Positions 3,462 through 59,162 of a stretch of 64,000 bases of DNA are shown piece by piece. Position 1 is the first letter of the stretch; each line of letters starts with the position of its first letter. Made by a program: the position numbers and the translations under genes. This stretch comes from Candidatus Desantisbacteria bacterium CG1_02_49_89 (lineage in GTDB: Bacteria; Desantisbacteria; UBA1551): assembly GCA_001871075.1 (NCBI GenBank), contig MNUP01000033.1, positions 1 through 64,000 on the forward strand, in the 5' to 3' direction. Below the pieces are notes generated by a model that saw only the letters and a program-made list of their open reading frames with translations, ran no database searches and was not told where the DNA came from.

Positions 3462-3751
3462 TTTAAAAACCTCTGGATGATTTTACCGCAGGTTCCTATC
3501 AATTTAATTTTTCTTTTCTTTGACATAGTTTTTATTTTTCTCTCTGTCTTCATCGCATGCCTGCGGAATACGTATACCTTAGCATATACCAGCTTCACGG
3601 GCCCCCTGCCTTTTACATATTTAGCCCCTTTGCCCGTGTTGTGCAGGGCGATCCGTTTTTTCAGGTTATTGGTATAACCCGTATAGAATGTCCCGTCTTT
3701 GCATTTAAGGATATATACGAAAAACCTTTTTATGCTTTTCGCGCGTTTCAT
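3458..3751 (-). CDS. GIY-YIG nuclease-superfamily protein (UPF0213-like)
   Basis: 97 residues, the usual size of stand-alone GIY-YIG proteins. The motif appears as FVYILKC...FYTGYTNN (V-Y and T-G-Y-T in place of G-I-Y/Y-I-G, common in this subfamily), followed by RIALHNTGKGAKYVKGRGP. Cytoplasmic; the biological target of the subfamily is not established. It overlaps both neighbours by 4 bp (ATGA type), so it is probably translated together with the phosphodiesterase upstream and miaB downstream. Confidence 0.85.
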   Translation of the reverse strand: MKRAKSIKRFFVYILKCKDGTFYTGYTNNLKKRIALHNTGKGAKYVKGRGPVKLVYAKVYVFRRHAMKTERKIKTMSKKRKIKLIGTCGKIIQRFLK

Positions 3752-8476: not shown

Positions 8477-8550
8477 TGGGCGGTACCCGGCTCGAACGGG
8501 TGACCTCCACGATGTCAACGTGGCACTCTAACCAACTGAGCTAACCGCCC
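8477..8550 (-). tRNA. tRNA-Val(GAC)
   Basis: Complete cloverleaf on the minus strand: acceptor GGGCGGT/ACCGCCC, discriminator A, anticodon stem CCACG/CGTGG with loop TTGACAT, so the anticodon is GAC. CCA is not encoded. A partial copy of its own 5' part lies just upstream (8562-8645) and a hairpin directly downstream. Confidence 0.95.
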
Positions 8551-8561
8551 GCACATTCAAA

Positions 8562-8645
8562 CACTCTTAGCGAAGTTGAAAACTGCGACCACAGGGAGTC
8601 CCGCATCTCCGATGGTACATCGGAGCATCGGGGAGCTAACCGCCC
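8562..8645 (-). pseudogene. Partial tRNA-Val 5' copy interrupted by a palindromic insert
   Basis: 8633-8645 matches the first 13 bases of tRNA-Val (acceptor strand and D-stem start) and 8562-8567 matches the D-stem end. Between them (8568-8632) lies unrelated DNA with the 8-bp hairpin CTCCGATG-GTA-CATCGGAG at 8607-8625. The short matches make this the weakest of the three such cases. Confidence 0.55.
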
Positions 8646-8780: not shown

Positions 8781-8801
8781 GTCCCGATGTAACATCGGGA
8801 C
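8781..8801. repeat. GTCCCGATG-type hairpin 3' of tRNA-Phe
   Basis: GTCCCGATGT and its inverse ACATCGGGAC around one base. Related hairpins lie at 53868-53886, 58432-58452 and 58821-58840, each 3' of a tRNA. Confidence 0.8.
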
Positions 8802-8805
8802 TCCA

Positions 8806-8832
8806 CCACTTTTCCCTTGTTGGGAAAAGTGG
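8806..8832 (-). other. Hairpin abutting the 3' end of tRNA-Phe
   Basis: Stem CCACTTTTCCC / GGGAAAAGTGG with a 5-nt loop. Its architecture resembles the Val hairpin but the sequence differs, and both arms differ together. Confidence 0.75.
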
Positions 8833-8906
8833 TGCCAAGGGGCGGAATTGAACCGCCGACGCACGGATTTTCAGTCCGTCGCTCTACCAGACTGAGCTAC
8901 CTTGGC
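8833..8906 (-). tRNA. tRNA-Phe(GAA)
   Basis: Acceptor GCCAAGG/CCTTGGC, discriminator A, anticodon stem ACGGA/TCCGT with loop CTGAAAA, anticodon GAA. CCA is not encoded. Upstream lies a partial copy of its own 5' half carrying an insert. Confidence 0.95.
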
Positions 8907-8943: not shown

Positions 8944-9056
8944 TTTCAGTCCGTCGCTCTTCCTGGGTGATCTGCATAAAAGAATGCGCGTCGCTTTGCT
9001 CTTCCACCCGTCGAAGACATAAGTGATGTCTTCGACCCAGACTGAGCTACCTTGGC
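8944..9056 (-). pseudogene. Partial tRNA-Phe 5'-half copy split in the D-loop by an insert
   Basis: 9037-9056 repeats the tRNA-Phe 5' end through the D-loop CTGG. 8944-8960 repeats AGAGCGACGGACTGAAA, from the D-stem to the anticodon loop, and then the match ends. The 76 bp between (8961-9036) are foreign. No 3' half is present, so this cannot be a working tRNA. Confidence 0.85.
8961..9036 (-). mobile_element. Palindrome-bearing insert in the tRNA-Phe remnant
   Basis: In tRNA sense it follows CTGG and starts with an 11-bp hairpin, GTCGAAGACAT / ATGTCTTCGAC, with loop CACTT (9010-9036). It ends ATCACCCAGGA, so CTGGGT/ACCCAG form short inverted ends. Related to the inserts near tRNA-Pro at 58944-59042 and 59061-59142. 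It encodes no protein. Confidence 0.65.
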
Positions 9057-58431: not shown

Positions 58432-58478
58432 GTCCCGATGTTACATCGGGACTCTGATTTTTCGCTTCGCGAAAAATC
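58432..58478 (-). other. Tandem hairpins 3' of tRNA-Arg(TCT)
   Basis: GTCCCGATGT/ACATCGGGAC (58432-58452) followed by GATTTTTCGC/GCGAAAAATC (58456-58478), which abuts the tRNA. Confidence 0.75.
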
Positions 58479-58868: not shown

Positions 58869-58943
58869 TCGGGAAGGTGGGATTTGAACCCACGGCCTCC
58901 TGCTCCCAAAGCAGGCGCGCTAGCCAGGCTGCGCTACTCCCCG
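58869..58943 (-). tRNA. tRNA-Pro(TGG)
   Basis: Acceptor CGGGGAG/CTTCCCG with one G-T pair, discriminator A, anticodon stem CCTGC/GCAGG with loop TTTGGGA. CCA is not encoded. A 5'-half copy with inserts lies upstream. Confidence 0.95.
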
Positions 58944-59042
58944 TCGCCTGCTTTGCTCGCCCAGGGCATTCTGCAGGCGAACAAAGCGTTTGTTCGTTCC
59001 ACTCACTCCATGCCCGTGAACGACATAAGTGATGTCGTTCAC
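58944..59042 (-). mobile_element. Palindrome-bearing insert B between tRNA-Pro and its remnant
   Basis: In tRNA sense it begins with the hairpin GTGAACGACAT/ATGTCGTTCAC, loop CACTT (59016-59042), then GGGCATGGAGTGAGTGGAAC, a CGAACAAA/TTTGTTCG stem and a GCCTGC/GCAGGC stem. About 99 bp. Related to 59061-59142 and 8961-9036. Confidence 0.65.
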
Positions 59043-59162
59043 CCCAAAGCAGGCGCGCTAATCCTGTGTGCTATGCAATAACGGAAGTGTGGCTCGTTCC
59101 ACTCGCATCGCACCCGTAAACGACATAAGTGATGTCGTTTACCCAGGCTGCGCTACTCCCCG
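59043..59162 (-). pseudogene. Partial tRNA-Pro 5'-half copy split in the D-loop by an insert
   Basis: 59143-59162 repeats the tRNA-Pro 5' end through the D-loop CCTGG. 59043-59060 repeats TAGCGCGCCTGCTTTGGG up to the anticodon. Between them lies insert A. Copy and intact gene match exactly in both pieces, and the copy stops at the anticodon as in tRNA-Phe. Confidence 0.85.
59061..59142 (-). mobile_element. Palindrome-bearing insert A in the tRNA-Pro remnant
   Basis: In tRNA sense it starts after CCTGG with the hairpin GTAAACGACAT/ATGTCGTTTAC, loop CACTT (59116-59142), then GGGTGCGATGCGAGTGGAAC, and ends ACACAGGAT. Same insertion point as in the tRNA-Phe remnant. Confidence 0.65.

Follow-up and report, generated by a model that had tools for sequence, protein, structure and literature searches.

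What process leaves a partial copy of a tRNA gene, interrupted twice by related hairpins, directly upstream of the intact gene? The question is raised by 219 bases on the minus strand (59162-58944) of the window, by which we mean the whole 64,000-nucleotide stretch of Candidatus Desantisbacteria bacterium CG1_02_49_89 DNA analysed here; they lie immediately 5' of an intact tRNA-Pro(TGG) gene (58943-58869). In tRNA sense, the initial annotation had read the region as a remnant 5' end, an insert A, a stretch from D-stem to anticodon, an insert B and then intact tRNA-Pro, and this order proved exact to the base:

59143-59162, minus strand: tRNA-Pro remnant nucleotides 1-20, CGGGGAGTAGCGCAGCCTGG, from the 5' end to the D-loop GG, by identity with 58924-58943 of the intact gene
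59061-59142, minus strand: insert A, 82 nt (covariance model E 3e-18), predicted to fold as a closed domain
59116-59142, minus strand: hairpin of insert A, with an 11-bp stem and loop CACTT; a second stem accompanies it
59043-59060, minus strand: tRNA-Pro remnant nucleotides 22-39, D-stem to anticodon loop, by identity with 58905-58922 of the intact gene
58944-59042, minus strand: insert B, 99 nt (covariance model E 1e-10)
59016-59042, minus strand: hairpin of insert B, which also has a stem GGGCAT/ATGCCC
58869-58943, minus strand: intact tRNA-Pro(TGG), found by ARAGORN and by Rfam RF00005 at 66.8 bits

Insert B entered the anticodon loop, again directly after a GG. Its predicted fold has a z-score of -4.18, with 0 of 200 shuffles equally stable, and its 3' end pairs over 11 nt with the anticodon strand of the remnant (58945-58955 with 59045-59055). 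In Rfam searches at gathering and relaxed thresholds the intact tRNA alone reached threshold, and no described RNA family, such as a group I intron, was matched.

The tRNA-Phe locus (9056-8830, minus strand) follows the same plan but with a single 76-nt insert; its point of entry after the D-loop GG (remnant 9056-9037, insert 9036-8961) is the same as that of insert A, as had been proposed. A tRNA-Val remnant in the window carries an unrelated hairpin:

9037-9056, minus strand: tRNA-Phe remnant nucleotides 1-20, by identity with intact tRNA-Phe
8961-9036, minus strand: 76-nt insert in the D-loop of the tRNA-Phe remnant, with its hairpin at 9010-9036 (covariance model E 2e-24)
8944-8960, minus strand: tRNA-Phe remnant nucleotides 22-38, by identity with intact tRNA-Phe
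8830-8906, minus strand: intact tRNA-Phe (ARAGORN)
8607-8645, minus strand: tRNA-Val remnant nucleotides 1-13 (8633-8645), then the unrelated hairpin (8607-8625), upstream of intact tRNA-Val (8477-8550)

A survey of all 43 tRNA genes of the 2.48-Mb genome found remnants with other hairpins also at Cys, Met, Pro(GGG) and Val. Another family of inserts, CCCGCCCAGCAAGATTGGCGGGTAAACTCC, is represented three times at one D-stem site, in the two tandem remnants at Pro(GGG) (L049) and in the one at Pro(CGG) (L040). On the other side of most tRNA genes in the window, 3' of the gene, lies a terminator-like hairpin, often GTCCCGATGTNACATCGGGAC, followed by AT-rich repeats of the GAAAATAGAGAATTGAGCAATAG type (for example at 8781-8834 and 58432-58478). 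The window also contains perfect 78-nt inverted repeats 1.17 kb apart (957-1034 and 2209-2286), which may represent an insertion sequence or a flanked cassette, and, at 50-620, a unit of about 147-150 nt repeated in tandem as four imperfect copies.

Nine copies of the insert are known from pattern search and covariance model together: eight in this genome, with E values from 1e-10 to 2e-24, and one in Ca. Desantisbacteria CG1_02_38_46, the sole other genome of the phylum in the comparison. Run over 386 genomes, the model found no copy in the other 384, and a pattern search of the genome collection returned one contig with the insert; no exact insert pattern occurs in the viral contigs. All nine copies lie inside tRNA 5' fragments, namely those of Phe, Pro(TGG) (twice), Pro(CGG), Tyr, Ser(GGA), tRNA-Ser at C35 and at C113, and a tRNA-Ser-like fragment in CG1_02_38_46. 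Entry is directly after the D-loop GG in eight, and after the anticodon-loop GG in the remaining copy, insert B. Three copies have no adjoining intact tRNA (L059 on C35, L060 on C113 and L065, G001:C91). The tRNA-Ser fragments at C35 and G001, which end in or just past the anticodon arm, are candidate integrase attachment sites.

The insert is built from an 11-bp hairpin, a second stem GGRTG/CAYCC and a covarying 2-bp mini-stem, and ends 3' in CAGGA in most copies. The three hairpins of the window share ACAT-CACTT-ATGT, and their outer arms are altered in matched pairs (GTCGAAG/CTTCGAC, GTGAACG/CGTTCAC and GTAAACG/CGTTTAC). The initial annotation had described these arms and had suggested covariation as a check on whether such paired changes hold across copies; they do, significantly, over all nine, with double-sided changes in 13 of 18 pairs and no match among 500 shuffles. 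In the nine-copy alignment 96.9% of cells are paired, a figure favoured by fitting the alignment to the model's own structure, while only 22-46% are paired in slid controls. The Ser(GGA) copy has an entirely different hairpin (GTCCCGATAAC/GTTATCGGGAC), and pairing is still kept. Preservation of the stem through selection and preservation through copying both fit these changes and are not separable by them, because template-switch correction of imperfect palindromes also yields paired changes.

In this genome, a Pfam search detected seven small GIY-YIG ORFs, together with a weak match inside a longer frame. tRNA genes (Met, Cys, ProCGG, SerGGA and SerTGA) are found no more than about 500 bp away from five of the seven; three tRNA-linked free-standing ORFs score 61-68 bits against PF01541. 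At the Cys and Met loci the order is remnant, GIY-YIG ORF, intact tRNA, and the Met frame extends into the intact tRNA gene and terminates within the anticodon loop there. At Pro(CGG) the GIY-YIG ORF abuts the 5' end of the remnant that holds the 76-nt insert, and the ORF stop codon is inside the remnant. At the tRNA-Pro(TGG), Phe and Tyr loci we found neither a GIY-YIG ORF nor a recognisable piece of one. Two side observations belong with these genes. At L055 (C122) a stretch of the GIY-YIG ORF, approximately its final 27 bases, recurs upstream of the tRNA-Met remnant, which resembles a SegB-type tandem duplication, and the preceding tRNA-Leu(TAA) apparently has a 3' remnant too. The window itself holds a GIY-YIG ORF beside a miaB-like gene (3497-3724, minus strand), which belongs to a clade without tRNA linkage.

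The association of such ORFs with tRNA remnants extends well beyond this phylum. A protein search of 290 diverse genomes found relatives in 69, and 32 of the 73 matches examined lie at most 200 bp from a tRNA, where roughly 1% would be expected from tRNA density; this linkage of 44% holds for that part of the GIY-YIG family only, because the matches were gathered by their resemblance to a tRNA-linked ORF. On the GIY-YIG tree, linked ORFs group together (11 changes against 25.4 in shuffles, 0/500), and the clade of the window's ORF at 3497-3724 shows almost none. Every one of the 32 linked ORFs is on the strand of its tRNA, 18 upstream and 14 downstream, and 25 of them have a partial copy of that tRNA on the side facing away from it; the chance of an 11-base match within 220 bp is estimated at about 0.003 per locus. 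ORFs upstream of the tRNA have its 5' part as this far-side remnant, ORFs downstream have its 3' part, and several upstream remnants end at the T-loop. Protein searches of viral contigs returned nothing, and among phage and plasmid records the GIY-YIG relatives were distant ones only.

Hairpins are characteristic of these remnants as well. A perfect palindrome of at least 6 bp is present in 21 of the 25, compared with 20.7% for control windows (p 2e-11); for at least 7 bp the corresponding figures are 16 of 25 and 6.8% (p 2e-13). The palindrome takes the place of the anticodon arm at L097, L101, L115 and L120 and of the T-arm at L112 and L144, and it splits the D-loop at L087, L093 and L096; D-loop hairpin inserts thus recur in other genomes.

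Among 37 tRNA-linked proteins, 14 have their nearest GIY-YIG relative at a tRNA of the same isotype, where 2.5 are expected (0 of 5,000 permutations). The matches include Cys and Pro(CGG), shared between this genome and other families, and also Asn, Gln, Asp, Ala and Arg. At two Asn-type loci (L092 and L102) the ORF stop codon is made from identical remnant bases (GGCTGTTAA), and a hairpin follows in the corresponding place with a different sequence in each. This sharing of isotypes would fit isotype-specific GIY-YIG lineages with transfer between bacteria; a less likely explanation is very ancient vertical descent accompanied by frequent losses. In a search for a never-invaded, syntenic site of the tRNA-Asn element, family relatives proved to have tRNA-Asn, but the matches span only the tRNA itself.

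One pair of congeners differs by the ORF. G086 has remnant, ORF and intact tRNA-Ala, and G226 has, at the same locus, remnant and intact tRNA with the ORF absent, which is the layout of the window's tRNA-Pro and tRNA-Phe; the hairpin arms of the two differ by matched changes (AGCCGAT/ATCGGCT against TCCCGAT/ATCGGGA). Alternatively, the ORF may have been gained between a remnant and a tRNA already in place. No never-invaded site was found, G086 and G226 both having the remnant, and we therefore infer the order of events.

Taken together, we consider it probable (roughly 0.6) that the tRNA-Pro(TGG) arrangement goes back to an element that invades tRNA genes and has a small free-standing, SegB-like GIY-YIG nuclease gene at its core, of which it would be either the relic or a non-autonomous offshoot. 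The nuclease would cut a tRNA gene of its own isotype, and repair of the break would bring the element in, accompanied by a tRNA segment; one flank would thereby regain an intact tRNA while the opposite flank kept a partial copy, and that resulting architecture is the one observed. The remnant gains palindromic hairpins that replace or interrupt its D-, anticodon- or T-arm, here the two-stem insert of 76-99 nt. Loss of the GIY-YIG ORF would then leave remnant with hairpin followed by intact tRNA, as we suppose for tRNA-Pro and tRNA-Phe and as the sister species with and without the ORF illustrate elsewhere. Several candidate reasons may account for a remnant's gain of a foreign hairpin: closure of the half-tRNA in a fold of its own, splitting of the direct repeat against loss by recombination, a shield against renewed cutting, or a by-product that palindromes generate through mutation. 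The hairpins may well disarm the remnant, in that they keep the duplicated half-tRNA closed as a fold and interrupt the direct repeat. A folding test of such disarming or shielding gave no support, as in the predicted fold the acceptor strand of the remnant can pair with the tRNA 3' end with or without the inserts.

The strongest competitor, possible but rather unlikely in our estimation, makes the insert a separate small mobile element of two hairpins that targets tRNA D-loops after GG, the GIY-YIG elements only supplying tRNA pieces or mobilising it in trans; it would be seen only in duplicated tRNA pieces because insertion into functional genes would be lethal. The insert may indeed be such an element, because it is longer and far more conserved than the other remnants' palindromes and is confined to two genomes of one phylum. 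That a single insert sequence occurs in Phe, Pro, Tyr and Ser remnants, that all nine entries follow a GG and that the second site is the anticodon loop of the same remnant all speak for it, whereas the lack of any copy outside tRNA fragments, and the failure to find either a transposase or terminal features, speak against it. So do the remnants of other genomes, which hold hairpins of unrelated sequence at the same D-loop place, so that the acquisition of hairpins appears to be general. The paired changes would also be expected if the remnants were simply decaying: replication slippage would give partial tandem tRNA duplications, the dead copy would gather palindromes because template switching perfects inverted repeats, and only interrupted repeats would escape recombinational deletion. 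The breaking of remnants into short repeats and the free variation of hairpin sequences between genomes agree with this account, which nevertheless leaves unexplained the GIY-YIG ORFs between remnant and tRNA, the strict rules of strand and side, the isotype clustering and the same 76-nt insert at eight places; we regard it as improbable.

Two familiar routes seem far less probable still. Scars of phage or island integrases at tRNA attachment sites could account for some tRNA-Ser fragments (C35, G001), which stop in the usual crossover region in or just after the anticodon arm, but the duplicated part is the 5' half, adjoining the intact gene with nothing between, many isotypes are involved and the inserts are left unexplained, making this a very poor candidate. 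The least credible origin is as REP-like palindromes spread by a RAYT-type Y1 transposase. The genome has ten Y1-transposase matches and palindromic repeats are common in it, so a REP-associated tyrosine transposase, which the initial annotation had suggested looking for, could have been linked to the insert; none of the five loci inspected is flanked by the insert hairpin, however, and one has a different palindrome pair. The insert is restricted to tRNA remnants (9/9 copies) and is not a dispersed intergenic repeat. With these insert-free flanks (5 of 10 loci) and a pattern search without copies elsewhere, a REP/RAYT origin finds no support. L172 (C83) has a Y1 transposase in a 150-aa frame between two CCCCGCGGCTTGCCGCGGGG copies, likely a RAYT/REP pair unrelated to the insert.

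The closest known system, and a tested precedent for the initial steps proposed above, is SegB of phages. This GIY-YIG enzyme makes its cuts inside tRNA genes and promotes the tandem duplication of tRNA and segB, for which microhomology shared by the 5' region of the tRNA and the 3' end of segB is the proposed route (PMC13096335). The enriched motif of SegB is RAWTSGAAC (PMC13096335), whose reverse complement, GTTCSAWTY, we would equate with the tRNA T-loop consensus. In T4, segB sits between tRNA-Arg and tRNA-Ile (PMC2988022), and T-even phages carry SegB with other free-standing GIY-YIG homing endonucleases (PMC2988022; PMC13096335). Both systems have a small GIY-YIG gene adjoining tRNA genes. 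The units described here differ in residing in bacterial chromosomes of many families, in isotype-specific lineages, while the phage survey reports no isotype preference (PMC2988022; PMC13096335); they usually have a tRNA remnant with an exchanged hairpin arm, and the gene of the putative nuclease is absent from the window's inserted loci. In the open-access literature we found no description of chromosomal GIY-YIG/tRNA-remnant units.

Other short repeats offer partial likenesses. The double-hairpin and repetitive hairpin-forming elements of mitochondria (PMC2800124) are likewise short, non-coding, presumed mobile repeats of one or two hairpins, but occupy intergenic regions and some genes, whereas the insert is bacterial and found in tRNA remnants only. 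REP classes (PMC3733652) share short palindromes of conserved structure, but the insert is neither dispersed nor linked to a transposase. Partial tRNA copies in prokaryotic genomes are also the subject of work on partial tRNA genes mis-annotated as tRNAs (PMC9897764); its abstract deals with annotation error, and a count of terms gives no mention of GIY-YIG.

A bolder generalisation is one that we put forward tentatively and believe somewhat less likely to be right than wrong. Widespread chromosomal selfish elements, each lineage with one tRNA isotype and a tiny GIY-YIG nuclease, would rebuild the intact tRNA and leave behind a structure-exchanged pseudo-tRNA whose foreign hairpin is under selection; in Desantisbacteria, a non-autonomous two-stem module would have spread through pseudo-tRNA D-loops.

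tRNA genes are favoured landing sites of mobile DNA, a habit documented chiefly for integrases. In the present case the invader of tRNA genes, in many bacterial families, seems to be a nuclease gene of some 80 codons acting alone and leaving partial tRNA genes, and the near-constant presence of a foreign hairpin in the left-over half-tRNA becomes a question in itself. If true, this would suggest a function for the very common small GIY-YIG proteins of bacterial genomes and provide a chromosomal counterpart of phage SegB.
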